Positions 3,641-63,425 of a stretch of 64,000 nucleotides of DNA are shown here, piece after piece. This DNA comes from Clostridiaceae bacterium BL-3 (GTDB lineage: Bacteria; Bacillota; Clostridia; Clostridiales; Clostridiaceae), in NCBI GenBank assembly GCA_902809985.1, contig CADDXC010000001.1, forward strand, positions 2,294,001-2,358,000, given 5' to 3'. Position numbers and translations under genes: made by a program. The first letter of the stretch is position 1; each line of letters starts with the position of its first letter. The notes beneath the pieces were generated by a model, which had not been told where the DNA came from, searched no databases, and worked only from the letters and a program-made list of their open reading frames with translations.

Positions 3641-3900
3641 AAAAATTCGTCCCTTAAAGGGACGAATTCCTAATTCCGCGTTACCACCCAAATTAATATC
3701 ATTTAAATAATATTCTCTTTGAAAATTTATCGGCATTACCGCTAACTGCTAATTATAATTTCACAGGTAGTACTCCAGAGCGAACTTCAATATATGGTAT
3801 TTTAAAAAAGCTTTCAGCCTTGACTTTTTTTCTCTAGAAAATACTGATATACCTACTTTCTCCTTCACAGTATAATACTATAAATTTTTTGTTATCTATA
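3641..3900 (-). promoter_or_regulatory. T-box riboswitch of pheST (tRNA-Phe)
   Basis: On the minus strand the conserved T-box GGGTGGTAACGCGG (3676-3689) is followed by a terminator stem (GAATTCGTCCC with GGGACGAATT) and a U-tract. Upstream are an AGTA motif, the pairing GGTAT/ATACC and a CTCTGGAGT stem-III-like element. The probable specifier is UUC (3782-3784), within ATTGAAG-TTC-G. The thrS leader has the same context with ACC, which supports the assignment. Uncharged tRNA-Phe would stabilise the antiterminator and permit transcription of pheST. The leader fills the gene-free stretch between pheS and the RNA methyltransferase gene. Confidence 0.93.
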
Positions 3901-8126: not shown

Positions 8127-8375
8127 AATACTCCTCCCTCTACTGGGACGAGTATTACCGTGGTTCCACCCAACTTAATAGTATAAGCAAAGATCACAAA
8201 TACTATTCTCTCTACCTTTAACGCTGGCTAACGGAAATACTTACAAAACTTCAGTATACAACTCCTGGGTGGTTTTCAATAGATTTCATTTAAGGGATAT
8301 TTCAGCACACAATCCCTCTCTCTTAAAACAATTGATCTATTTACTCTTCCCTTTCATAGCTTTTACTTCTACTTG
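8127..8375 (-). promoter_or_regulatory. T-box riboswitch of thrS (tRNA-Thr)
   Basis: The T-box GGGTGGAACCACGG (8158-8171, minus strand) is followed by a terminator stem (ATACTCGTCCC with AGGGAGGAGTAT, 8127-8156). AGTA and an AATAGAT/ATCTATT stem lie upstream. The probable specifier is ACC (8271-8273), in the context ATTGAAA-ACC-A followed by CCCAGGAGTTG. This matches threonine and has the same layout as the pheST leader. It occupies most of the gene-free stretch between thrS and ytxC. Confidence 0.93.
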
Positions 8376-28933: not shown

Positions 28934-30475
28934 TTACACAGGTATATTGCCGTGTTTTTTGGGAGGGCTGCTTTCCCTCTTCTCCTTTAACATTTCAAAT
29001 GCTGCTGCCAGCCTCTGCCTGGACTCTGACGGTACTATTATATCATCCACATATCCCCTCTTTGCCGCCATATAGGGATTTGCAAAATCATCCTTGTATT
29101 CCTGCACTCTCGCACGCCTTTCGGCTTCCGGATCAGCTGCAGCTTTGATCTGCTTTTTAAATACAATATTTGCTGCACCATCAGGTCCCATTACAGCTAT
29201 TTCTGCTGATGGCCAAGCATACACTATGTCCGCTCCCAGATCCTTGCTGCACATTGCCAGATATGAGCCACCGTAAGCTTTCCTGACAATCATGGTTACC
29301 TTTGGAACAGTGGCTTCAGAATATGCATAGAGCAATTTAGCCCCATGTCTTATTATTCCATCGTGCTCCTGGTTTTTGCCGGGCAAGAATCCTGGTACAT
29401 CAACTATATTTAAAATTGGAATATTGAAAGCATCACAAGTTCTTATAAATCTAGCTGCCTTATCTGAAGCATTTATATCAAGACATCCTGCCAGTACTTT
29501 AGGCTGATTGGCTATTATTCCTATGCTTTTTCCATTCATTCTTCCAAAACCTATTATGATATTCTGGGCATATCTTTCCTGTATTTCAAAAAAGCTGTTC
29601 TCGTCAACTACCCTGTTTATTATATCCTTCATGTTATAAGGTTTATTGGGATTGTCAGGAATTATAGAATCAAGTTCAGGAATAATTCTGTTTAAATCAT
29701 CCTCTGCCTGAAATTCCGGAGCACTTTCCATATTATTTGAAGGCAAATAGGACAGTAGTTTTTTTACCTGATCCAGAGAAGTTTTTTCATCCGCAGCTTC
29801 AAAATGTGCAACTCCCGACTTTGTGCTGTGAGTTCCTGCACCGCCCAATTCCTCTACGGTTACATCTTCTCCTGTAACTGTCTTTAAGACCTTAGGACCT
29901 GTTATGAACATCTGACTGGTATTGTCAACCATGAATATAAAATCTGTAAGTGCTGGTGAATACACTGCTCCACCGGCACAAGGTCCCATTATCATGGATA
30001 TCTGCGGTATTACACCAGATGCTTTTGTATTCCTGTAGAATATTCCACCATATCCTGCCAGTGCATCTACTCCCTCTTGAATCCTTGCTCCACCTGAATC
30101 GTTTATTCCTATTACAGGTGCTCCTGTCTTCACAGCAAGATCCATTATGTCACATATCTTTTTAGCATGCATTTCTCCAAGCGCCCCGCCTGTGGAAGTA
30201 AAGTCCTGTGCATATACATAAACAAGTCTTCCATCTATGGTACCGTATCCAGTTACTACACCTTCATCAGGTATTTCAACCTTTTCCATTCCAAAATTAG
30301 TACACCTGTGGCTTACAAATACTCCCACTTCGACAAAACTGCCTTCATCCAGCAGATATTCTATCCTCTCCCTGGCGAACATCTTTCCCTTTTTATGCTG
30401 TTTGTCAATTCTAGTCTGGCCCCCACCTTTTTCAATTTTCTTCTTATCCTCTATAAGTTTGTCAATCTTGCTCAT
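28934..30475 (-). CDS. mmdA: Methylmalonyl-CoA decarboxylase, alpha (carboxyltransferase) subunit
   Basis: This transfers the carboxyl group of (S)-methylmalonyl-CoA to protein-bound biotin, giving propionyl-CoA. It is a crotonase-fold carboxyltransferase of 513 residues. Landmarks are [18 protein letters not shown] (oxyanion/CoA site), [17 protein letters not shown], and in the second half [24 protein letters not shown] and [13 protein letters not shown]. The sequence alone could fit propionyl-CoA carboxylase beta. The adjacent MmdB-type pump and lack of a biotin carboxylase gene here favour the decarboxylase. Confidence 0.93.
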
Positions 30476-30503
30476 ATTCCTCTCTCCTTAATAGACAAAA
30501 TTA

Positions 30504-30911
30504 TTATTTCTGGCAGAGTTCCAAAAGTACACCATTTGTACTCTTTGGATGCACGAAAGCAATTTTTGCACCACCTGCACCATCCCTAGGTTTTTCATCT
30601 ATGAGTCTCATGCCCTGTTTTTTAAGCTCTTCCAGAGCTGCTTCTACATCATCCACTCTAACTGCAATATGCTGTATTCCCTCTCTCTTTTTTGCAATAA
30701 ACTTTGCTATGGGACTATCATCACTCGTAGGTTCCAGAAGTTCAAACTCACTCTCTCCAATAGGTACAAAAGCTGTTATTACTTTCTGAGATTTTACTTC
30801 CTCGGTTCCCTTGCATTTAAGTCCCAGAACACCCTCATAAAATTTCAATGACTCCTCAATGCTCTTTACGGCAATTCCAACATGGTCTATTTTTTTCAAA
30901 TCAATACTCAT
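30504..30911 (-). CDS. mce: Methylmalonyl-CoA epimerase
   Basis: This interconverts (R)- and (S)-methylmalonyl-CoA, linking the mutase to the decarboxylase. It is a vicinal-oxygen-chelate metalloenzyme of 135 residues with [19 protein letters not shown] (metal His), [14 protein letters not shown] (second His) and the C-terminal VLLELCQK containing the metal-binding Glu. The frame extends upstream inside meaB; I chose the ATG at 30911, which is 1 nt past the meaB stop and has GGGAG upstream. Confidence 0.94.
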
Positions 30912-30912
30912 G

Positions 30913-31869
30913 TTATTTTTCATCTCCCATTTTAAAATTTTTATATAATGTATCGGATGCAGTGTAAGGATCCATCTTTTTATTAAAGACGTCCTCCACA
31001 AGTCTTTTTAACATACCCGTTTTATAATCCAGTTTTAAAGCGGATCTTACCAGGTTGTTCTTCAATATAGAAATTATCTTGTCTTTTAATTTTGACTTTC
31101 TTCTCTCTTCCAGTACTCCCTCCGATGCCATACTGTCATAACATTCATCTATAGCTGAAAGTAATCTGTCAATTCCAGTATTGTCTTTTGCAGTTATGTT
31201 CAGTACTGGAGGCAGCTTCCCCCCTTTGTCATTGAAGCTCAGCATGGCCTCTATCTCTGCTGCTGTACGCTGGGCACCTTCCTTATCAGACTTGTTGACT
31301 GCAAATATGTCTCCTATTTCCATTATTCCTGCTTTCATTGTCTGTATATCGTCTCCCAGGCCTGGAACCATTACCATAACTACGACATCGGCCACTTTGA
31401 CTATATCCACTTCAGACTGTCCTACACCAACAGTTTCAATAAATATATAGTCCATGCCAAAAATGTCCAGAATATTTACAGTTCCATATACCGCATCAGA
31501 AAGTCCTCCCAGGGCCCCTCTTGTACCCATACTTCTTATAAATACCCCTTCATCGGTATTGAGATCATTCATTCTGACCCTGTCTCCAAGTATTGCTCCA
31601 TGTGAAAAAGGACTCGTAGGATCAACAGCTATGATCCCGACCTTTTTGCCCTGTTTTCTGATAAGTTTTGCTATTTGATCTGTCACTGTACTCTTGCCAG
31701 CTCCTGGAGGACCGGTTATTCCTATTACCCTGGCCTTCCCGGTTAGATGGTATAGATCTTTCATAAGTTCAAGAGATCTGCTGTCCTCATTTTCCATCAT
31801 GGTTATTAATTTTGCAGCAGCTCTTTTCCGACCGCCCATAATACCTCTTTTAATATCTTCAATATCCAT
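30913..31869 (-). CDS. meaB: Methylmalonyl-CoA mutase-associated GTPase MeaB
   Basis: This G3E-family P-loop GTPase (ArgK/MeaB) protects the B12 mutase and gates its cofactor loading. It has 318 residues. Walker A is [18 protein letters not shown], switch segments include [31 protein letters not shown] is the G3 region and NKSDKEGA is the base-specificity motif. I chose ATG 31869 over an upstream GTG because AAGGGTG is at the right distance. It lies between the mutase small subunit and the epimerase. Confidence 0.95.
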
Positions 31870-31886
31870 CACATTCACCCTTTAGC

Positions 31887-32285
31887 TTAGTTCAACTTAA
31901 CATTTTTTCTAATAAAGTCAACTGTGTCGGAGGTTTTTGTTCCCGGTGTAAAGATGGCTTTCACTCCTGCCTTCTTCAGCCCCGGTATATCCTCTTCAGG
32001 TATGACTCCACCTCCTATGACAAGAACATCTTCCGCACCCTTTTCTTTAAGCAGGTTTACTACCTTGGGAAACAGAGTATTGTGCGCCCCAGACAGTATG
32101 CTCATTGCAACACAGTCCACATCTTCCTGTACTGCTGCTTCTGCAATCTGATTTGGCGTCTGCCTCAGTCCCGTATATATAACTTCCATTCCGGCATCTC
32201 TGAGTGCCCTTGCTATTACTTTAGCTCCCCTGTCATGTCCGTCTAATCCCGGTTTTGCAACTAAAACTCTTATTGGTCTATCCAT
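31887..32285 (-). CDS. mcmB: Methylmalonyl-CoA mutase, small B12-binding subunit
   Basis: This is a stand-alone cobalamin-binding domain of 132 residues. The base-off motif is [18 protein letters not shown] (D-x-H-x-x-G, with His as the lower cobalt ligand), followed by [12 protein letters not shown] and [13 protein letters not shown]. In many bacteria the mutase is one chain; here, as in many anaerobes and archaea, the catalytic and B12 domains are separate genes. It follows mcmA by 27 bp. Confidence 0.95.
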
Positions 32286-32312
32286 ATCTAAAATCTCCCC
32301 TCACTTTTTAAT

Positions 32313-33977
32313 TTATTTATATTCTCCAAATACTCCCCTAAGGACATCACATATTTCACCCAGGGTAGCATATTGTTTTACAGCGTCAATTATGAAAGGC
32401 ATCAGGTTATCTCCCTTTTTAGCTGCATTTTCAAGTGAAGCAAGTTTTTCGCCTACAGCTTTTGAATCTCTTTCAGCCTTTAACTGTTTCAATTTTTCCT
32501 TCTGTTTTTCACCTACGGAAAGATCTACTTTTAAAAGTCCCTTTGGAGGTTCTTCTTCTATCTGGAACTTATTCATTCCTACAACTATCTGTTCTCCTGA
32601 CTCTACTTCCTTCTGGTACTCATAGGAACTATCTTCTATTTCCTTCTGTATATAACCTTTTTCAATTGCCTTTGCCGCTCCACCCAGTTCATCTATCTTA
32701 TTTATATATTCCATTGCCTTTTTCTCTGTCTCATCCGTCAGAGCTTCTACATAATAGGAACCTGCCAGAGGATCTATAGTATCTGGTACTCCACTTTCAC
32801 AAGCTATGATCTGCTGTGTTCTAAGTGCAACTCTTACCGAATCCTGGGTAGGAAGTGCCAGTGCTTCATCTTTCGAATTGGTGTGAAGGGACTGGGTTCC
32901 TCCAAGTACAGCTGAAAGTGCCTGAAGTGTAACTCTCACTACATTATTATCCGGCTGCTGTGCTGTAAGGGTACACCCTCCTGTCTGGGTATGGAATCTG
33001 AGCTTCAGGGATTTAGGATTATTTGCATGGAATCTCTCCTTCATGACTTTTGCCCATATTCTTCTTGCTGCCCTGAATTTTGCAACTTCCTGGAACAATC
33101 CATTGTTCGCATTGAAGAAGAATGACAATCTTGGTGCAAACTGGTCAACATCAAGACCCGCTTTTATAGCAGCTTCCACATAGGCAATTCCATCGGCAAT
33201 TGTAAATGCAACTTCCTGCACAGCAGTAGAACCTGCCTCCCTTATGTGATACCCTGAAATGGATATTGTATTCCACTTTGGAAGGTTCTTGGAACAAAAT
33301 TCGAATATATGGGTGATAAGTCCCATGGAAGGCTGAACCGGGAATATATACGTTCCCCTTGCCACATACTCTTTCAAAATATCATTTTGGATAGTACCCC
33401 TTAATTTTTCAGGAGTTACTCCCTGTTTTTCTGCTACAGCGATATACATTGCAAGCAGTATTGAAGCCGGAGCATTTATTGTCATGGATGTACTTACCTT
33501 GTCCAGTGGTATTCCATCGAAAAGAGTTTCCATATCTTTAAGTGAGTCTATGGCAACACCAACTTTACCGACTTCTCCCTCTGCCAATTCATGATCTGAA
33601 TCGTAACCTATCTGCGTAGGTAAATCGAAAGCTACACTAAGTCCTGTCTGGCCCTGTGAAAGTAGATATTTATATCTCTTGTTTGATTCCTCTGCAGTAG
33701 CAAAACCTGCATACTGCCTCATTGTCCAGAGTTTACCTCTGTACATAGTAGGCTGAACGCCTCTTGTATAAGGGTATTCTCCTGGAAATGAAAGCTCTTC
33801 ATTATAATCAATGCCTTGTACATCTTCCGGTGTATAAAGTCTTTTGACCTCTATGCCAGATGTGGTCTTAAAAGATTTCTTTCTTTCCGGAAATCTTCCA
33901 AGAGCTTTCCCAAGAGTTCCTTCTTCCCATTCTTTTTTCTTGGCTTTTACTTCATTAACTTTTTCTTCCTTAAACAT
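32313..33977 (-). CDS. mcmA: Methylmalonyl-CoA mutase, large catalytic subunit
   Basis: This is the TIM-barrel subunit of the adenosylcobalamin-dependent mutase that isomerises succinyl-CoA and (R)-methylmalonyl-CoA. It has 554 residues. Substrate-site signatures are [55 protein letters not shown] and [19 protein letters not shown]. The B12-binding domain is supplied by the next gene. An AAAGGGG SD precedes the ATG. It follows the CoA-transferase gene by 16 bp. Confidence 0.97.
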
Positions 33978-33993
33978 TTTCTAACCCCTTTCT

Positions 33994-35517
33994 CTATACT
34001 TCTGGACTTGATTTATCAGTTTTAAATTTCATGCTGCCAGTTTCCTCAAATCTCTCATGCCATGACAGCGCCTCTTTAAGTAAAACCGGCGTATGAATAT
34101 TTTTGCCTTGACTTGCCCTCTTAAAATAATCTTTAAGGAAAGGTCTATAATAAGGATGACTGCAGTTTTCTATTATGACTTTTGCCTTTTCCTTTGGTGA
34201 CAATCCTCTTAAATCAGCTACTCCCTGTTCTGTAACTATTACATCTACATCATGTTCTGAATGATCACAGTGAGGCACCATTGGAACTATTGAGGATATT
34301 TCACCATTTTTAGCAATTGACTCTGTAGTGAATATGGATATATATGAACTCCTCGTAAAATCTCCTGAACCACCTATTCCATTCATCATTCTGGAACCCA
34401 TTATCTGGCTTGAATTTACATTTCCATATATATCCGCTTCTATAGCTGTATTCATGGCTATTACTCCAAGCCTTCTGATCACTTCAGGATTGTTGCTTAT
34501 TTCCTGAGGCCTCAATATAAGCTTCTTTCTGTATTCATCAATTTTTTTATAGAATTTTTTTTGTCCCTCCTCAGAGAAAGAGACAGATGTAGCTGAAGCC
34601 ACTGAAATCTTGCCTTCATCCATGAGATTAAATACTGAATCCTGTGCAACTTCAGTATATACCTGCAGATCAGTAAATCTGGATTCTTTTAATCCTGCAA
34701 GTACTGCATTTGCAACAGAGCCAACTCCTGATTGAAGTGGAAGCAGATTTTCAGGAAGTCTTCCCTGTTTGACTTCATTTTCAAGAAAATCTATCAGATT
34801 TCCAGCCATTTTCCTGCTTGTTTCACTTATTGGTGCTACACTTCTAATATTATCTTTTATATCGCTGAAAACTATACACTTTATTTTTTTAGGATCTGTC
34901 ACTATATAGTCTGTCCCTATCCTATCAGATGCATGAGTTATAGGTATTGGCTGTCTAAAAGGCGGCTTCTCTGGAACATATATATCATGTATTCCTATAA
35001 GTGAAGTGGGCTGAGTTTCGTTTATCTCCACAATTACAATATCTGCATTTTTAACATATGTAGGTGAATTCCCTACAGATGTAGTTGGTATTATATAACC
35101 CTCTTCAGTTATACCGACAGCTTCAACTATCGCCACATCGATTTTGCCCATAAAACCATAATCCACCATCTGTGGAGACATACTGAGATGTGCATCTACG
35201 TAATCGATTTTGCCTGCATTGATGGCATTTCTTACATCCTTGTGTGTCTGATATGGAAATCTCTTTTTAATTGCGCCGGCTCTGGCCAGTTCTCCATCCA
35301 GTTCATCCCCTACAGAGGCACCTGTGTACAAATTGATTTTAATTTTTTCACCATCTTTTACCCTCTTCGCCAGTGCTATGGGCACTGATTTAGGATAACC
35401 TGAAAACGTAAAACCACTGGTTCCGACAGTCATGCCGTCTTTGATAAGTTGGGCAGCATCGTTTGGTGTCCCTATACGTTTTAGAAGTTCTTTGTTTTTT
35501 ATTCTATCCGTAATCAT
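33994..35517 (-). CDS. Succinate/propionyl-CoA (or acetyl-CoA) CoA-transferase
   Basis: This is a class I CoA-transferase of the acetyl-CoA hydrolase/transferase family (Cat1/ScpC-like), 507 residues. Landmarks are VGTSGFTFSGYPKSVP, the catalytic Glu region NTAIEADIYGNVNSSQIMG, then GGSGDFTRSSY and VTEQGVADLRGLSPKEKA. At the head of the mutase/decarboxylase cluster, the obvious role is to move CoA from propionyl-CoA to succinate, closing the cycle. The exact acyl donor is inference. It is the first gene of the cluster. Confidence 0.9.
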   Translation of the reverse strand: MITDRIKNKELLKRIGTPNDAAQLIKDGMTVGTSGFTFSGYPKSVPIALAKRVKDGEKIKINLYTGASVGDELDGELARAGAIKKRFPYQTHKDVRNAINAGKIDYVDAHLSMSPQMVDYGFMGKIDVAIVEAVGITEEGYIIPTTSVGNSPTYVKNADIVIVEINETQPTSLIGIHDIYVPEKPPFRQPIPITHASDRIGTDYIVTDPKKIKCIVFSDIKDNIRSVAPISETSRKMAGNLIDFLENEVKQGRLPENLLPLQSGVGSVANAVLAGLKESRFTDLQVYTEVAQDSVFNLMDEGKISVASATSVSFSEEGQKKFYKKIDEYRKKLILRPQEISNNPEVIRRLGVIAMNTAIEADIYGNVNSSQIMGSRMMNGIGGSGDFTRSSYISIFTTESIAKNGEISSIVPMVPHCDHSEHDVDVIVTEQGVADLRGLSPKEKAKVIIENCSHPYYRPFLKDYFKRASQGKNIHTPVLLKEALSWHERFEETGSMKFKTDKSSPEV

Positions 35518-35632
35518 ACTATCCCCTTCTTTATTAAATAATTAACATAATTATTATTTATTAAATTTTTTAATTTATGCTTTACACTCTCCTTTCTTTT
35601 TTGATCTAGGTATGTATAATAGAAAAACAAAA

Positions 35633-35670
35633 AACGGCATAAGTGCATTGAAAAATGTACTCATGCCGTT
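35633..35670 (-). terminator. Terminator between the DUF3870 gene and the propionate cluster
   Basis: On the minus strand AACGGCATGAGTACA pairs with TGCACTTATGCCGTT and is followed by TTTTTTG. It should stop most transcription coming from the B12-riboswitch-controlled DUF3870 gene. Confidence 0.85.
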
Positions 35671-35729
35671 ATTTTTATTAATTTTATATAAAGGTTTAGC
35701 CTTCATACCATAATAAAATGGCAATATTA

Positions 35730-36062
35730 TTAACTTTTTTTCTTTACTTTCTTTACTATTATTTTATACCTTTCATAACAATTTATCAATACCGCTATAA
35801 AAGATTTTTTAGCCATTCCAAAATAATTATCTTCTATATCCGACACAATTTCTCGAATATCATTCAAATTTCTTCCTATTAACAATTCTTTGGCATATTT
35901 TTTTGCGGTGTCAGTGACAAAAGAACACTCTATATCCTGTATTTCTCCTGAATACCTATTTACAATAACTCCTATGACAACTTCTCCACCGTAAAGCTGA
36001 CTTGCCGTTATCCCCTTCGGAAGCTTTGCATAGCCTGTAATAAATATATTATCCTTTTTCAA
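35730..36062 (-). CDS. DUF3870 family protein under a B12 riboswitch
   Basis: This protein of about 110 residues matches DUF3870: KKDNIFITGYAKLPKGITA at the N-terminus, a central GVIVNRYSGEIQDIECSF and AKKSFIAVLINCYERYK near the end. Function is unknown. The open frame continues to 36233, but that upstream part coincides with a cobalamin riboswitch and is not protein. I chose TTG 36062, where the family begins; a GTG at 36077 is an alternative. The SD region (GGAGGAAAGGG) lies in a small hairpin, TTCCT-TCGG-AGGAA, a likely translational switch. It is separated from the B12-dependent mutase cluster by a terminator. Confidence 0.75.
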   Translation of the reverse strand: MKKDNIFITGYAKLPKGITASQLYGGEVVIGVIVNRYSGEIQDIECSFVTDTAKKYAKELLIGRNLNDIREIVSDIEDNYFGMAKKSFIAVLINCYERYKIIVKKVKKKS

Positions 36063-36114
36063 AAAACATACCCCCACAACATATATATCCCTTTCCTCCG
36101 AAGGAATCAACATA

Positions 36115-36250
36115 TATATTAGGCAGGCTTCCTGGCTCAGATTCATCTTACTCCTTAGTCTTCCCAGACAATACATCCAGTGACATGATAAAGTTTCATC
36201 CTCCATACAGTAGCGGCGGACTGCAGTATTCAACTTTTCCTTTTACTTAT
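36115..36250 (-). promoter_or_regulatory. Cobalamin (B12) riboswitch
   Basis: On the minus strand the B12 box reads AGCCAGGAAGCCTGCC (36122-36137), close to the consensus AGYCAGGARACCTGCC. Upstream are CTGGGAAGAC (36159-36168), GTCACTGG (36177-36184) and the P4-P6-like segment CTGCAGTCCGCCGCTACTGTA (split near 36204-36224). The order and spacing fit the aptamer. The DUF3870 SD just downstream is in a hairpin, so translational repression by B12 is likely. Confidence 0.9.
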
Positions 36251-36291
36251 TAAAATAACACCTAATTAAATATTTAATTTTAACAAATTTC

Positions 36292-57594: not shown

Positions 57595-58311
57595 ATGGAA
57601 TTAAAGTATGATCTTACAGATCCCTATCAAATAGCCAAGTACATAAAAGAAGCCAAAAAATCCACACCGATAAAGCTGTATATCCAGGGAAATATATCAA
57701 AATGTAATCTAAATGGCATGGAAATCTACGGGAGTGATAATTTTCATATTATATTTGGAGAAAGTGATGTGATATCCAAATTTCTAGTAGAGAACAGAGA
57801 TAAAATTGATCATTTCAGAATAGAACAGGATAGGAGAAATTCAGCTATTCCGCTTATGGATCTAATAAACATAGACGCAAGAATTGAACCAGGAGCAATA
57901 ATACGGGATAAAGTCAAAATAGAAAAAAAGGCAGTTATAATGATGGGAGCAGTCATAAACATAGGCGCTGAAATAGGTGAAGGCGCTATGGTTGATATGA
58001 ATGCAGTAGTGGGTGCCAGAGGCAAATTAGGGAAAAATGTTCATTTAGGTGCTGGGGCAGTAGTGGCCGGGGTTTTAGAACCGCCTAGTAAGTCTCCCTG
58101 CGAGATAGGTGATGATGTCCTCATAGGCGCTAATTCAGTCATCCTAGAAGGTGTGAAGATAGGAAATGGTTCGGTTGTAGCCGCAGGTTCGGTAGTAATA
58201 GAGGACATTCCAGCTGGAGTAGTTGCTGCCGGAACTCCTGCAAAAATAATAAAAAAAGTAGACAGCAGTACCATGGACAAAACTAAAATTCTAACAGATT
58301 TAAGACAATAA
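57595..58311 (+). CDS. dapH: Tetrahydrodipicolinate N-acetyltransferase
   Basis: This acetylates tetrahydrodipicolinate in the acetylase branch of diaminopimelate/lysine synthesis. It has 238 residues. The left-handed beta helix starts near [19 protein letters not shown] and continues through [20 protein letters not shown] and [19 protein letters not shown]. The N-terminal DapH domain begins [20 protein letters not shown]. It has its own GAGAGG SD region and lies far from asd-dapA-dapB. Confidence 0.96.
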
Positions 58312-58320
58312 TTTAAAATC

Positions 58321-58357
58321 AAGCGGATAAAATAAAGCTAAAAAACCTTATCCGCTT
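58321..58357. terminator. Terminator between dapH and the methyltransferase operon
   Basis: AAGCGGATAA pairs with TTATCCGCTT, with AAAAT on the left and AAATAC on the right. It lies between convergent genes and could serve both. Confidence 0.65.
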
Positions 58358-58373
58358 AAATACCTATTTACAT

Positions 58374-58790
58374 TCAATCTATCTTTAAGTCATATTCTGA
58401 TGGTATAAAATTATTTAAGTTTAATTCTTGTTTAATTTTATACCAAAATTCTTGTTCGTTTTCTGGAATATTTTCAAGTTGATCACTCATGATGTCAAGC
58501 CATTTATATTCTCTATCCTCAATACATACTTCCTTATTGTCAATTGCCTTTCTTATTTCATCCATTGCATCACGAACTATTTTATTAATTTCAATCCCCC
58601 ATTCTGGATTTACAGTCATAGGTGGAAGAAGCTCTAATTCCACCAACAAACCTTTGCAATATAATTCTTTCGCCCTCTTTAATACTCCTCCTATTACCAG
58701 TCCATTTTTTGTTGTCACTGGATTTTCAGCAACACCATATATAAAATCTTTTAATGAACTATAAGCTAACCTGTTAAACTTTTTATTCAT
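58374..58790 (-). CDS. Shortened MtaB-like corrinoid methyltransferase protein
   Basis: This 138-residue protein resembles pieces of MtaB (methanol:corrinoid methyltransferase). The N-terminus FNRLAYSSLKDFIYGVAENP and GLVIGG match the first MtaB segment; then VLKRAKELYCKG and LELLPPMTVNPEWGIEI match a segment that normally lies about 40 residues further on. Full MtaB proteins are about 460 residues, so an internal piece and the C-terminal catalytic part are missing. This looks like a degenerate or repurposed MtaB relative. It is the last gene of the SAM-riboswitch operon. The assignment rests on remembered family patterns. Confidence 0.55.
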   Translation of the reverse strand: MNKKFNRLAYSSLKDFIYGVAENPVTTKNGLVIGGVLKRAKELYCKGLLVELELLPPMTVNPEWGIEINKIVRDAMDEIRKAIDNKEVCIEDREYKWLDIMSDQLENIPENEQEFWYKIKQELNLNNFIPSEYDLKID

Positions 58791-58820
58791 ATGAAACCTC
58801 TCTCGTAAGATAAGACAAAT

Positions 58821-59465
58821 TTAACTTAAATATTTCTTTATCAAAATATCTTTTGCTGCTTCTGCAGCAGTAGCGGCATCCGGCATATAAATATCTGCAT
58901 CAACTTGCTTTGCATAGCTATCTGTAACTGGCGCACCACCTATCATAAACACATATCTATCTCTTACACCATTAGCTTTAAAATTTTTAATTACCTCACC
59001 AATAGATGGCATAGTAGTGGTCAATAATGCCGAAATACCTACAATATCTGCATTGACCTCTGCAGCTTTTTCCACAAATACTTCTGGTGAAACATCTACT
59101 CCTAGATCATGTACTTTTATTCCTGCCCCCTGCATCATCATTTTAACTAAATTTTTTCCGATATCATGCAAATCTCCTTTTACCGTACCAATAACAACTG
59201 TTCCTATGGGTTTTATACCTGATTCAGTTAATATTGGCTCCAATATTTTTAAACCAACACTCATGGCTTTTGCTGCAATAAGCATTTCAGGTACATATAT
59301 TTCATTATTTTTAAATTTTATACCAACTTGTTCCATAGCAGCTATTAAAGCTTCATCTAAAATTTTCTTTGCACTGATTTTTTCTTTTATTAACTGCAGC
59401 ACAAACTCTTTTGTTTTTTTTAAATTACCTTCTTGAACATATAGAGAAAGTTCTTCTAAATTCAT
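58821..59465 (-). CDS. Corrinoid methyl-carrier protein (MtaC/MttC-like)
   Basis: This 214-residue protein shuttles methyl groups on cobalamin between two methyltransferases. The N-terminal helical cap (LDEALIAAMEQVGIKFKNNE; YVPEMLIAAKAM) is followed by the B12-binding Rossmann domain with GTVKGDLHDIGKNLV (D-x-H-x-x-G, His ligates cobalt), SALLTTTMPSIGEVI and MIGGAPVTDSYAKQVDAD. The start at 59465 has an AGGAG SD and lies 11 bp past the stop of the UroD-family gene. Confidence 0.93.
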   Translation of the reverse strand: MNLEELSLYVQEGNLKKTKEFVLQLIKEKISAKKILDEALIAAMEQVGIKFKNNEIYVPEMLIAAKAMSVGLKILEPILTESGIKPIGTVVIGTVKGDLHDIGKNLVKMMMQGAGIKVHDLGVDVSPEVFVEKAAEVNADIVGISALLTTTMPSIGEVIKNFKANGVRDRYVFMIGGAPVTDSYAKQVDADIYMPDAATAAEAAKDILIKKYLS

Positions 59466-59476
59466 CTCAATTACTC

Positions 59477-60607
59477 CTATCTTCCATATTTTGTCCATTT
59501 ACGGGAAAATGTTAAAAATTCATCTGCCTCTTTTCTATTTGAACAATTTACAACAAAAAATACGCCATCTGGAGAAATATTATTTAAAATAGGCTCAATT
59601 TGCTCAGGTATAACCTCTCTTATAACTAATTTTTTTCCACAGGATTGAATTTGTTTATACACCTCTATCGATGTTTCACTGGAAAAATCCTTAATCACTT
59701 TATTAAATTTTGGACTATACTTTGGTACAGGATCCCATTCTATTGAATGAAGCCCTTCTAATCTCAACAATATAGATAAATATTTAACCTGGTCTTCACC
59801 ATCCAAATTAAAAAGAGCTTGATCTAAATAATCCGCTTCCCTTTGAATTGCAGGAAATACTATATCTTCAAACATAGTTGGGGAAATCATTGTTGAAAAT
59901 TCACTTAAAAGCGGATACCATGTTTTTTGATTTACAATAGGAACCCATGAAGTAAAGGTTCTTTTATACCTGCTTAGAATTTTTATATTTTCATCAAATA
60001 CTTCTTTCCAGAATTGATCAATTCTAAAAAGAAACCTTTTAACTTCATCCGGTTCAACAATCAAGTCCATTAGTAAATTTTCTCTTCCTCTCAAGGACGC
60101 CAATACATCCATATTAGCACCAACATCAGTAATACTTGTAATATACCTTCCCTGCGAAGCCTCACAAAAGCTTTTGGTAATACCAATAAATTTTTTATAA
60201 ATTTCGCTGTCTTTTAGAAGACTAAGCTTAGGTAAATCATTCCAATCTGAAATTATAGGTTTGGCATCATACCATATAGTATCCTCTGCTAATTTATATT
60301 CAGAGCCCAGAAATGAAGCTAATATACCAGAACCAAAGTCAATATTGGCAATAGGAACTGCATCACCAGCAAAATAAGTAGTATTAAGTTTTTGATTATT
60401 TTCTTCCAATCTATAATCTATATCAAACCATTTTTGTTCAAGAGAACCTGGAGGCTTTATTGGTGGATATTTATCAAGTGCTGTTTCATCTGGTGCCATA
60501 ATGGCAAAATATGCCCCTTCTCCTTCAAATCTTTTGTCCCAAAAATTATAATGCCTATTAAGTCGTTTCTCCATTTCCTCTAAATCCAACAAGTATTTCA
60601 CCTCCAA
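59477..60607 (-). CDS. UroD-superfamily methyltransferase (MtaA/CmuA-like)
   Basis: This 376-residue protein has the UroD/MtaA fold: GSGILASFLGSEYKL and FNLDGEDQVKYLSILL near the position where family members have DGPGAxxHL, then LHSIEWDPVP and IREVIPEQIEPILN. In corrinoid systems such proteins transfer methyl groups from the corrinoid protein to a thiol, or from a substrate to the corrinoid. The H-x-C...C zinc motif of MtaA and MtbA is not visible, so the acceptor and the mechanism are uncertain. It follows the ABC ATPase gene by 15 bp. Confidence 0.8.
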   Translation of the reverse strand: MEVKYLLDLEEMEKRLNRHYNFWDKRFEGEGAYFAIMAPDETALDKYPPIKPPGSLEQKWFDIDYRLEENNQKLNTTYFAGDAVPIANIDFGSGILASFLGSEYKLAEDTIWYDAKPIISDWNDLPKLSLLKDSEIYKKFIGITKSFCEASQGRYITSITDVGANMDVLASLRGRENLLMDLIVEPDEVKRFLFRIDQFWKEVFDENIKILSRYKRTFTSWVPIVNQKTWYPLLSEFSTMISPTMFEDIVFPAIQREADYLDQALFNLDGEDQVKYLSILLRLEGLHSIEWDPVPKYSPKFNKVIKDFSSETSIEVYKQIQSCGKKLVIREVIPEQIEPILNNISPDGVFFVVNCSNRKEADEFLTFSRKWTKYGR

Positions 60608-60622
60608 AATAAATAATAATCT

Positions 60623-61378
60623 TCAAATTGCATTTACAATAAACCTTTTAAGCGCCTTACCTATAAATTGACGTGTCCTATTTTCCGAAGGATTAGTAAA
60701 CATCTTTTCCACAGAACCTTCTTCAACTATTATTCCATCTTCCATTAAAACCACTTTGTCAGCCACATCACGAGCAAAACCAAGCTCATGTGTAACTATA
60801 ATCATTGTATTATCATCATTAGCAAGCTGTTTTATAGTATGAAGTACCTCATCAACCAATTCTGGATCCAGTGCAGAGGTAGGTTCGTCAAAAAGAAGCA
60901 CTTCAGGATTCAAAGCCAGGGCCCTGGCAATGCCAACTCTCTGCTGCTGACCTCCTGAAAGCTGGCACGGATAATAATCAACCCTATCTTTCAGACCAAC
61001 TTTATCTAAAATCTGCCTTGCAATTTCCACTGCTTTTTCTTTATTTAATTTTTTAACTGTTGTAAGCCCTATAGTTACATTCTGAAGCACATTTAAATTT
61101 TTAAAAAGATTATACTGCTGAAAAACCATAGCAGTGGAAGTCCTAAGCTGAAATATATCTTTTTTGCTTGCAGTTTGAGAATTAACCCTAAGTCCGTTGA
61201 TTTCAATTATTCCAGAGGAAGGCCGTTCTAAAAAATTTATACTGCGCAGTAAAGTAGATTTCCCAGAACCACTCGGCCCAAGTATGGCAATTACCTCACC
61301 TTTTTTTACTGTTAAATTCACATTTTTCAATACATGATGCTCAGAAAAATATTTATTAATATTTCGTAGATTAATCAT
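60623..61378 (-). CDS. Polar amino acid ABC transporter ATPase (GlnQ-like)
   Basis: This 251-residue ATPase has Walker A ILGPSGSGKSTLLRSINFLE, the signature LSGGQQQRVGIARALAL, Walker B LLFDEPTSALDP and the H-loop TMIIVTHELGFARD. These match the polar amino acid (PAAT/HAAT) subfamily. The ATG overlaps the permease stop by 1 nt (TGATG), so the two are coupled. It powers the importer encoded by the next two genes upstream. Confidence 0.96.
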   Translation of the reverse strand: MINLRNINKYFSEHHVLKNVNLTVKKGEVIAILGPSGSGKSTLLRSINFLERPSSGIIEINGLRVNSQTASKKDIFQLRTSTAMVFQQYNLFKNLNVLQNVTIGLTTVKKLNKEKAVEIARQILDKVGLKDRVDYYPCQLSGGQQQRVGIARALALNPEVLLFDEPTSALDPELVDEVLHTIKQLANDDNTMIIVTHELGFARDVADKVVLMEDGIIVEEGSVEKMFTNPSENRTRQFIGKALKRFIVNAI

Positions 61379-62097
61379 CAAACAACACTTCTTTCAAATA
61401 TTCTGCTTCGTTTTTCCAATAAATTAAGACACTTTTCAAGTATTATGCATATAAACCAGTATATAATGGAGACGGCTATATAAATTTCAAAAAAAGCCAA
61501 ACCTCTGGCTCCAATTATTTTTGCCTCCCCCATTATGTCTACAATACCTATCATAAAAATGAGAGAAGTATCTTTAACGGTGCTGATTAATGTATTTCCT
61601 AAATTAGGTATAGCTACAATCAGTGCCTGCGGAAGAACAATTTTGAGCATTATTTGAGCTTGGCTCATTCCTATAGAATTAGCTGCTTCAAACTGACCCC
61701 TGTCAACAGCTTCAATTGAAGATCGTATGGTCTCAGACAAATATGCCCCTAAATTAACTGAAAACGCCAATATCGCATAGTATTCAGGTGGTATTACATT
61801 TACATTAATGTTCTCAAACCAACCGTATTTTATCTGAAAAAAGTACAAAAATTTAGGCATACCAAAATAAATAAGATATAGTTGAACTAACAAAGGTGTT
61901 CCCCTTACAAAAGACACATAAACCATAGCAATTTGCCTTAATACTGATATTTTATAAATTTTAACAATAGCTATAAAAAAACCTACCAATAACCCAAATA
62001 ACATGGATATAACAGTTACCATCATCGTAGCTGATAAATATGGAATTAACTTTGGAATACACTTCACCATATAAGTAAAATCAAATATCTTGTCCAT
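61378..62097 (-). CDS. Polar amino acid ABC transporter permease
   Basis: This 239-residue membrane protein has about five helices and the HisM-family features SFVRGTPLLVQLYLIYFGMP and GAYLSETIRSSIEAVDRGQF, with an EAA loop containing EAANSIGMSQAQIMLKIVLP. It forms the import channel with the ATPase and the lipoprotein binding protein. The other half of the channel is presumably the same protein as a dimer. Confidence 0.95.
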   Translation of the reverse strand: MDKIFDFTYMVKCIPKLIPYLSATMMVTVISMLFGLLVGFFIAIVKIYKISVLRQIAMVYVSFVRGTPLLVQLYLIYFGMPKFLYFFQIKYGWFENINVNVIPPEYYAILAFSVNLGAYLSETIRSSIEAVDRGQFEAANSIGMSQAQIMLKIVLPQALIVAIPNLGNTLISTVKDTSLIFMIGIVDIMGEAKIIGARGLAFFEIYIAVSIIYWFICIILEKCLNLLEKRSRIFERSVV

Positions 62098-62142
62098 AAA
62101 ACACCCTCCTGATATGAAGTCATGATATTCTATACCATCTAT

Positions 62143-62958
62143 TTATTTAGGTATATACTCTCCACCAGTCCATTTTTTTGATAACTTTGCAAGCGTGCCG
62201 TCTTCTCTAAGCTGTTTAATTATAGGATCGATTTTTGATTTGAGTTCCTGCCCTTGCTTGTCTTTCTTAAAAACAAGATGTATCTTGTCACTTTGAACTG
62301 GTTTTGCAACTACCTGTACCTGTAAATTCTGCTTTTTGATAGTGGCCTCTGTCATTACTGGATCATTTACATAAGCGTCAACTCTTCCATTTTGCACATC
62401 TATCAAATTATCTGATGAATTTCCTGTATCATTATATTTTAAAATTATTTTATTACCATTTTCCTTATTATATTTTTCAAGCAATTGTGTGTATGAGTCA
62501 CCTACAGAAGCTGCTACACTTTTACCTTTTAAATCTTCCAACGACTTTATATCATTTCTACCTTTTTTTACAATTATGACTGACTCAGCTGTAAAATACG
62601 GCTGATCTGAAAAAAGATATTTTTTCTCACGCTCAGGGTTTTTAGCAATTTCATCTGCAACAATTTGAGTTTTATTTGATTCCAGCGAAAGAAAAATACT
62701 ATCCCAAGCAGCAGGTGCAAATGTAAATTTATATTCATCTAATCTCTTATCTATTTCCTTTATTACATCAATATCATATCCAGTTAAATTACCTTTGTCA
62801 TCATTGTAACAAAAAGGCGGATAATCATTTTGCGTACCTACATATATGGTTTTTACTTCTTTTTTGCTCGTATTGGGTTTTGTATTTGAAGAGCATCCGT
62901 TAAAAATCGCTATTATTACCACTAACGCTAAAATTATTGCAGTTTTCTTTTTTTCCAT
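62143..62958 (-). CDS. Polar amino acid ABC transporter substrate-binding lipoprotein
   Basis: This 271-residue solute-binding protein starts at ATG 62958 after AAAGGAG. It has a lipoprotein signal (ILALVVIIAIFNGC, with Cys at the lipobox). Family 3 landmarks are VGTQNDYPPFCYNDDKGNLTG (split), GYDIDVIKEIDKRL and AASVGDSYTQLLEKY. Such proteins bind amino acids such as cystine, glutamine or arginine. Control by a SAM riboswitch points to a methionine- or sulfur-related ligand, but the substrate is not known. The 245-nt leader between riboswitch and start has no recognisable element. Confidence 0.93.
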   Translation of the reverse strand: MEKKKTAIILALVVIIAIFNGCSSNTKPNTSKKEVKTIYVGTQNDYPPFCYNDDKGNLTGYDIDVIKEIDKRLDEYKFTFAPAAWDSIFLSLESNKTQIVADEIAKNPEREKKYLFSDQPYFTAESVIIVKKGRNDIKSLEDLKGKSVAASVGDSYTQLLEKYNKENGNKIILKYNDTGNSSDNLIDVQNGRVDAYVNDPVMTEATIKKQNLQVQVVAKPVQSDKIHLVFKKDKQGQELKSKIDPIIKQLREDGTLAKLSKKWTGGEYIPK

Positions 62959-63203
62959 ATTTTTCTCTCCTTTGAATTTTATTATATCTTTATCAATATT
63001 CACAACTATTTTAAATAAATCTGCAATATCACCGCCTTTTGATAATTATTTTGGGAATAAACAAAGGCCAAGAATTACCATTATAAAATTATAAATTCAT
63101 AATTTCACAACGGCAAAACTTAGCCTTTAGTTTTCTAATCAACTAATTTTAAATTAATAATCTTTAAATTTTTCCCAAGTCTCAAAAAATAATCAGAAAT
63201 AAA

Positions 63204-63358
63204 AAAACTTCTTGCAGAGAAAACTACAAGAAGTAACACTCTAATAATATCCTCATCTTTCAGGCTTCGCCTGATGGAATTAGCACCATTGAATACATAA
63301 TAATATCCAGGTTGCCGAGCTTCATAGGGCCAGTCCCTCCGCTTCTCTTGATAAGAAA
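63204..63358 (-). promoter_or_regulatory. SAM-I riboswitch (S box) with terminator
   Basis: On the minus strand the aptamer reads CTTATCAAGAGAAGCGGAGG (63338-63357), GACTGGCCC, GAAGCTCGGCAACC, GGTGCTAATTCCATCAGGC and CTGAAAGATGAGG, all conserved S-box segments in order. A terminator follows (ACTTCTTGTAG with CTGCAAGAAGT and a U-run, 63204-63234). SAM binding would stop transcription of the ABC/methyltransferase operon. Confidence 0.97.
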
Positions 63359-63396
63359 ATTAATTTTTAATTTATATTGCATATATTACGAGATTT

Positions 63397-63425
63397 AGTA
63401 TATAACATATCAATTTTTTTGTCAA
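63397..63425 (-). promoter_or_regulatory. Promoter of the SAM riboswitch operon
   Basis: The -35 is TTGACA (63420-63425) and the -10 is TATACT (63397-63402), with a 17-bp spacer. It starts the riboswitch transcript about 35 bp upstream of the aptamer. Confidence 0.85.

Follow-up and report, generated by a model that had tools for sequence, protein, structure and literature searches.

A SAM Riboswitch-Headed Importer Operon with a Putative Corrinoid Methyl-Transfer Tail in a Clostridiaceae Genome

Gene Order and Control Region

The window analyzed here is a 64,000-nucleotide stretch of the genome of Clostridiaceae bacterium BL-3 (assembly GCA_902809985.1, contig CADDXC010000001.1, positions 2,294,001 to 2,358,000); coordinates are window positions unless another locus is named. 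Judged by features of the genome, the genus seems similar to the Clostridium ljungdahlii/kluyveri group. On its minus strand, between positions 63425 and 58374, an S-adenosylmethionine (SAM)-I riboswitch, or S box, precedes six genes that encode the lipoprotein, permease, and ATPase of an ATP-binding cassette (ABC) importer, a protein of the UroD superfamily, a corrinoid protein, and a shortened MtaB. Downstream of the lipoprotein gene, the gaps between genes are 45 bp or less. The features of the locus are as follows:

63397..63425, minus strand: promoter-like site, TTGACA-17-TATACT (11 of 12 consensus matches; a consensus match only)
63250..63357, minus strand: SAM-I riboswitch aptamer (S box), RF00162 (91.3 bits, E 1.6e-20)
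63207..63234, minus strand: intrinsic-terminator-like hairpin, part of the putative riboswitch expression platform (terminator scan and folding)
62143..62958, minus strand: solute-binding lipoprotein, family 3 (open reading frame listed from GTG 63003; likely start ATG 62958)
61378..62097, minus strand: ABC permease, polar amino-acid type (Pfam, NCBIfam)
60623..61378, minus strand: ABC ATPase, TcyN-like (likely start ATG 61378, overlapping the permease stop)
59477..60592, minus strand: UroD-superfamily protein of an uncharacterized subfamily (likely start TTG 60592, with GGAGG 8 nt upstream)
58821..59465, minus strand: corrinoid protein, MtaC-like (likely start ATG 59465)
58374..58790, minus strand: doubly deleted MtaB, 138 residues (Pfam alignment)
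58310..58372, minus strand: hairpin at the 3' end of the operon (z -3.75; 1 of 200 shuffles equally stable)

The likely start codons are our reading of the sequence, and residues of the UroD-like protein are numbered from the open reading frame listed at 60607. In Pfam, the products match SBP_bac_3, BPD_transp_1, ABC_tran, URO-D (weakly), B12-binding together with B12-binding_2, and MtaB. All elements of the order described in a first-pass annotation of this DNA (S box, importer, UroD, corrinoid, and MtaB-like genes) are present, and so is the promoter that it named, as a consensus match upstream of the riboswitch.

The riboswitch score is far above the gathering cut-off of its covariance model (44.4 bits), and the leader is one of 21 RF00162 matches in the genome. 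T residues directly follow the hairpin at 63234-63207, and the riboswitch and terminator together form a stable fold (z -3.57; none of 200 shuffles was equally stable). Folding yielded no clear alternative antiterminator. The arrangement supports the S-box control proposed by the first-pass annotation. No terminator-like site was found on the minus strand anywhere within the six-gene stretch, not even at the junction of the ATPase and UroD genes, where a strong terminator would have spoken against the operon. The hairpin at 58310..58372 lies between the last gene and a convergent dapH-like gene. Codon use is ordinary in all six genes; for the short MtaB gene this is a weak indication, another frame scoring as high. 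From this arrangement it is plausible that the six genes form one transcription unit. Promoter-like matches number 35, compared with 27.7 in shuffled sequences (standard deviation 5.0), and some of them are located inside the unit or behind the riboswitch, e.g., at 63116-63088.

The Importer

The three importer proteins have their best NCBIfam matches among the cystine systems TcyJ/L/N, in each case under the equivalog cut-off (312.5 of 406 bits for the ATPase, 186.3 of 300 for the permease, and 137 of 312 for the binding protein). Among solved structures, YtmK (2o1m) and Lmo2349 (4gvo) match the binding protein best. Permease relatives were found in 4 of 390 other genomes of the class (47-55% identical, E <= 1e-55) and in 25 of 205 other genomes of the family (E <= 1e-50). 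We read the surroundings of 14 such importers, namely all four class matches and 10 of the 25 family matches.

Four of the ten Clostridiaceae loci (L279, L282, L286, and L288) have a SAM riboswitch immediately upstream of the importer genes; at L281 one is present elsewhere in the stretch, not adjoining the importer. A candidate processing gene adjoins the importer at three of the four S-box loci. At L279, as at L281, which has no adjacent S box, the neighbor is a class-I aminotransferase-fold protein, which we take to resemble the MalY/PatB C-S lyases. At L286 and L288 it is an ATC_hydrolase gene, and the neighbor at L282 is a PGA_cap gene. At L265 the importer adjoins genes whose translations read as cysteine-synthase-like and Cys/Met-enzyme-like. 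Two of the four class loci, L263 (206-345) and L264 (10245-10106), have a cyclic di-AMP riboswitch before an importer relative with a fused binding protein and permease; no S box was found there. UroD or corrinoid relatives adjoin the importer at none of the 14 loci. The closest case is L288, where genes for RACE, a corrinoid protein, and UroD-type proteins lie up to 12 kb away, outside the importer unit.

Because an S box directly precedes relatives of the importer at 4 of the 10 Clostridiaceae loci, the front half of the operon is an ordinary S-box amino-acid importer of a type already known, which is often accompanied by a possible processing enzyme. The four Tcy-type operons share with the window operon the SAM riboswitch and the importer families, but contain no pair of UroD and corrinoid genes within the unit. 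The amino-acid-like importer of the first-pass annotation is borne out: cystine systems are nearest, and some relatives lie among genes of sulfur metabolism.

Two other S-box settings of importers were observed in the same genome. At L125 (11353-16115), an S box, a Lyase_1/ADSL_C protein, a GNAT acetyltransferase, and a Tcy-type importer occur together, with an adjoining M20-like peptidase gene; the set resembles a succinocysteine-type salvage operon. At L122 (2885-4414) and L126 (1080-2561), nitrogenase-like proteins (Oxidored_nitro, PF00148) are found beside ABC importers with S boxes nearby, and they may be systems of the methylthio-alkane reductase (Mar) type.

The Corrinoid Protein and the Doubly Deleted MtaB

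The corrinoid protein named by the first-pass annotation contains both B12-binding domains and a stretch of the DxHxxG type. It is 61-63% identical to corrinoid proteins of mtaB clusters in two genomes of the same genus (G007 and G009), and in the tree it falls into a five-member clade with the same-genus mtaB-cluster proteins (support 100/99); the tree contained no MtgC or MtbC references. These clusters, L091 and L092, each encode two such corrinoid proteins, and an intact mtaB immediately follows one of the two genes; the order of corrinoid gene and mtaB is the same as in the window. L091 additionally contains a pterin-binding methyltransferase and RACE; the window operon differs in having neither beside it, and in its MtaB of 138 residues without a barrel. 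Based on the kinship with the same-genus mtaB clusters, we classify the corrinoid protein as MtaC-like. Its gene shows a nonsynonymous divergence (dN) of 0.27 versus a synonymous divergence (dS) of 1.36. Eight other corrinoid-protein matches, MetH included, were found in the genome.

The last gene has lost most of its ancestral sequence. In an alignment to 15 full-length MtaB proteins, three regions of the product remain: one at the N terminus, another short one, and the C-terminal region. They correspond to positions 2-34, 67-111, and 398-460 of the Pfam MtaB model. The two deletions, both in frame, removed about 32 and 286 model positions. In an alignment to 2i2x, the positions of the zinc ligands, which we take to be Glu164, Cys220, and Cys269, fall in the deleted part, and the full TIM barrel is missing as well. 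The first-pass annotation was right about the family of this "shortened MtaB-like" protein, but understated the loss, since two deletions have removed the catalytic barrel. Searches with the short protein and with PF12176 yielded no second MtaB in the genome. Because the MtaB core is gone and no other MtaB was detected in the genome, a working methanol methyltransferase from the operon's MtaB is excluded, as judged from the sequence. Intact MtaB is present in only 2 of the 12 other genomes of the genus.

The retained segments are 50-59% identical to MtaB of L091, with dN of 0.33-0.41 and dS of 1.4, 2.8, and saturated. For two intact MtaB proteins, from L091 and L105 (66% identical), dN is 0.26 and dS is saturated. 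Relaxation of selection on the retained segments therefore seems mild at most, and most of this history may predate the deletions. At most, the product could serve as an adaptor; otherwise it is a remnant. It might be a functional small subunit built from the N- and C-terminal parts of MtaB, for instance an adaptor or stabilizer for docking of the corrinoid protein to the UroD-like protein. The precise in-frame architecture, the conservation of three segments, and the purine-rich, ribosome-binding-like stretch upstream of the ATG speak for such a subunit. The same short form was seen in no second genome: apart from G344, all other MtaB matches are in frames of at least 404 residues. We regard the small-subunit explanation as quite improbable.

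In the exceptional genome G344, MtaB matches are divided between one frame of 195 residues and another of 197, at about 8600-9350 of L109. This MtaB looks split or frameshifted, i.e., affected by another kind of loss than that in the window.

The UroD-Like Protein

Membership of the fourth protein in the UroD superfamily is evident from profile-profile comparison (hhalign probability 98.7, E 4.5e-16). The Pfam URO-D score of 19.2 bits is under the cut-off of 23.9, and no other Pfam match was obtained at E up to 1. Searches of PDB with the protein or its profile gave chance-level matches only. The gene is single-copy in its genome. Relatives were found in none of the other 12 genomes of the genus and in 18 of 193 other relatives' genomes (both at E <= 1e-3), and in 40 of 390 other genomes of the class (E <= 1e-30), with identity of at most 38%. 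A contig scan with the single UroD sequence produced 131 pattern matches and no relative, and a plasmid search gave no match. As the gene has no match in the other 12 genomes of the genus, it may have been acquired from a foreign source. A recent foreign origin of the operon is countered by its native codon use and by the genus kinship of its corrinoid protein.

The relatives discussed below are the best 80 of 242 loci. Ten of them lacked a usable full open reading frame and were left out, giving 70 aligned proteins; the row of L201 was kept, though incomplete. The pattern by which loci were chosen fixes D236 and restricts positions 235, 240, and 242, and D236 is present in 70 of 70 aligned relatives partly by construction of this pattern; H267 lies outside it. 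In a pattern-free set, which includes some of the same genes, both D236 and H267 occur in 16 of 16 relatives.

In a profile-profile alignment, the H-x-D motif of the subfamily corresponds to the H-x-C zinc motif of Mlp-type proteins, for which a His-Cys-Cys zinc site is described in an excerpt of PMC10418091. At these positions, members of the subfamily show His-Asp-variable, compared with Asn-Asp-Cys (N267-x-D269...C355) in the window protein. The His-Cys-Cys site of the SCMT/Mlp (MtaA-type) enzymes is therefore absent from the profile alignment of the window protein. The first-pass annotation had suggested that the corrinoid system might make methionine from homocysteine. Methylation of homocysteine by the UroD-like protein itself is unlikely, because the H-x-C...C zinc motif of thiol methylases is altered to N-x-D...C. 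We also considered and rejected an MtaA- or MetE-type homocysteine methylase, the zinc ligands being absent and Pfam yielding no MetE match.

Distribution of the Association in Other Genomes

Within 7 kb on each side of the 80 UroD loci, corrinoid proteins (CorP) are found at 10, RACE at 5, and MtaB at 5. No relative of the importer binding protein or permease was detected near any of the 80 at E <= 1e-8, and none of the 12 loci checked for SAM riboswitches had one. Among the 391 genomes of the class, the 4 others with the permease are absent from the 40 others with UroD. Among what was searched, the UroD-like gene is tied to an importer and an S box only in the window.

The company of corrinoid genes has a wider distribution. 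In four Armatimonadota loci (L197, L198, L209, and L249), genes for CorP, MtaB, and the UroD-like protein follow each other in this order, and a gene for a homocysteine methyltransferase-like protein comes next, either immediately or behind a second UroD gene. The methyltransferase was confirmed as PF02574 in L197 and L209, which also contain RACE, and L197 (4761-14731) has DUF1638 in addition. These clusters have the appearance of a pathway that yields methionine from a methyl donor, e.g., methanol, without folate. They resemble the window operon in that a member of this UroD subfamily is encoded next to corrinoid and MtaB genes, here immediately downstream of them; they differ in an intact MtaB, a conserved H267, the homocysteine methyltransferase, and the lack of such an importer in the stretch. 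At L201, MtaB and CorP are 4-6 kb from UroD; a corrinoid gene without MtaB is found near UroD at L183, L188, L190, L203, and L228; and at L174 RACE is just upstream. Thus, of the conserved association expected by the first-pass annotation, the importer part failed, with zero overlap of importer and UroD in the class, but the link of UroD with CorP, MtaB, and homocysteine methyltransferase was recovered in Armatimonadota.

At three loci of Clostridia (L154, L155, and L156), genes of the UroD subfamily adjoin apparent sugar isomerase or aldolase genes, with no corrinoid gene. This suggests that some members of the subfamily have a different function, one that involves no corrinoid.

Comparison with Known Systems

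The type 1 mlp clusters of Kountz and Balskus share with the window operon a UroD-superfamily protein and a corrinoid protein; in an excerpt of the paper (PMC10418091) they are proposed to serve methyl-selenium or methionine salvage, and are defined by at least two Mlps, a corrinoid protein, and Ram within 2 kb on the same strand. The window operon encodes one UroD-like protein of another subfamily, neither Ram nor RACE, and no His-Cys-Cys site. It was rejected as a type 1 mlp cluster on account of the single UroD-like protein and the lack of RACE. A locus of this make-up exists elsewhere in the same genome (L111, 5213-10611), with RACE, a UroD-type gene, a corrinoid protein gene, and two further UroD-type genes.

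The core methionine synthases MesA-MesC are similar in that a corrinoid protein is their likely methyl source for methionine (PMC7857596, partial text). The window UroD belongs to another enzyme family: homology to the MetE C-terminal domain, by which MesA-D are recognized, was not detected, URO-D being the only Pfam match at E up to 1. No S-box operon with the gene content of the window operon was found in the open-access literature, subscription papers being mostly outside the search, nor was a route that couples uptake of a methylated sulfur compound to B12-dependent methyl transfer under a methionine switch.

Proposed Function and Alternative Explanations

With its riboswitch, gene order, protein families, corrinoid kinship, lost MtaB core, and altered UroD zinc motif, the operon is real, unusual, and lineage-specific. 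We tentatively propose, at somewhat below even confidence, that it combines an importer under S-box control with a tail for corrinoid methyl transfer that acts on the imported sulfur compound. We infer co-transcription, the imported substrate, and a methyl transfer with its direction and acceptor. At low SAM, the riboswitch would let transcription through the terminator, and the lipoprotein, permease, and ATPase would take up an amino-acid-like sulfur compound. The tail would replace the processing genes of the relatives (the C-S lyase-like gene or ATC hydrolase), and the compound on which it acts is probably S-methylated. The UroD-like protein would move the methyl group between this compound and the MtaC-like corrinoid protein, and from there the group would pass to homocysteine through MetH, or to folate. 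RACE proteins, which are encoded elsewhere in the genome, would reactivate the cobalt. The only PF02574 protein of the genome is MetH. An intact relay like the MtaA/MtaC/MtaB systems cited by the first-pass annotation is not supported, the MtaB core being lost and the UroD zinc motif altered.

Several observations weigh against the proposed tail function. The importer and the UroD-like protein occur together in no other genome searched, and no close relative of the operon turned up in which selection since the changes could be gauged. Corrinoid proteins are missing nearby at 70 of the 80 UroD loci, so that members of the subfamily do not necessarily work with a corrinoid. The best NCBIfam matches of the corrinoid protein, MtgC (183.7 of 370 bits) and MtbC (180.2 of 350), are below cut-off, and the methanogen MtaC models score lower still (106.2 of 450 and 97 of 420). 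In the UroD-like protein, the zinc-motif His267, kept in 70 of 70 aligned relatives, is Asn, and altered positions of the active-site region comprise E236, N267, Y276, S278, and E290. Riboswitch-independent transcription from the internal promoter-like matches is possible.

Partial decay of the tail is a serious rival, one that we consider possible though rather doubtful. Here, a former mtaC-mtaB unit and a UroD gene would be decaying behind an ordinary S-box importer, which alone would work. The two MtaB deletions (about 32 and 286 model positions), the loss of the otherwise invariant histidine, the scarcity of intact MtaB in the genus, and the non-conserved association of importer and tail all fit this scenario. 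It is opposed by the open state of all frames, with both MtaB deletions in frame, by normal codon use (weak for the short MtaB), and by the well-kept corrinoid protein. The dN of 0.33-0.41 at a dS of at least 1.4 in the retained MtaB segments points in the same direction, though it mostly reflects pre-deletion history. Of 36 columns that are at least 85% conserved, the UroD-like protein departs from six, compared with 2.1 on average in the others; five of the six are within 236-290 and the other conserved positions are kept, unlike in spread decay. These changes look aimed at the active site.

A partial parallel is provided by the corrinoid-linked Armatimonadota proteins of L197, L198, L203, L209, and L249, and also by L220, which have Q276 together with E290. 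As E290 occurs in L236 and L252, and a residue other than His at 276 in L223 and L233, none of them with a corrinoid-protein match, the parallel of Y276/E290 with corrinoid-linked members seems loose. CdmB is a zinc-free methyltransferase of the UroD superfamily (extract of PMC13222342); therefore, loss of the zinc ligand does not in itself imply loss of function.

Another scenario, which we consider unlikely, is that the tail works in trans. The corrinoid protein would be charged by a methyltransferase encoded elsewhere, e.g., in an mlp-like cluster, and the UroD-like protein would pass the methyl group on; the S box would merely link the unit to methionine demand, and the importer substrate would be unrelated, e.g., cystine for homocysteine synthesis. 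Such a division of labor agrees with the eight other corrinoid-protein matches and the type 1 mlp-like cluster L111, with the cystine-like importer family, and with the existence of core methionine synthases that are probably fed by corrinoid proteins (PMC7857596, partial text). The UroD-like protein, however, lacks the His-Cys-Cys site of thiol methylases, and operon partners usually cooperate.

The proposed import-linked methyl transfer also has a more specific form, transport-coupled salvage of S-methylmethionine. This compound would be imported and demethylated through a metal-free UroD-like protein, the MtaC-like protein, and MetH, yielding two methionines each under control of the SAM switch. 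Zinc would be dispensable, the methyl group of the donor (a methylsulfonium or S-methyl amino acid) being already activated. We consider this form very improbable.

Other Features of the Window

A cobalamin riboswitch at 36280-36105 heads a minus-strand operon at 28934-36280. Read from their translations, its genes encode an apparent CoA transferase, methylmalonyl-CoA mutase, a MeaB-like GTPase, methylmalonyl-CoA epimerase, and a decarboxylase/carboxylase subunit, and we interpret the unit as a B12-switched methylmalonyl-CoA operon. T-box leaders are present on the minus strand at 8141-8366 (129.2 bits) and 3655-3877 (115.5 bits).

Implications

The uncharacterized UroD subfamily keeps the company of corrinoid and MtaB genes in part of its range, and its Armatimonadota clusters with homocysteine methyltransferase make a folate-free methionine route testable. 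If the tail of the operon is inactive, it would clearly exemplify a methyl-utilization module in the course of being partly lost. If it is active, uptake of methylated sulfur compounds would be linked to vitamin B12-dependent methyl transfer under direct control of a methionine switch.

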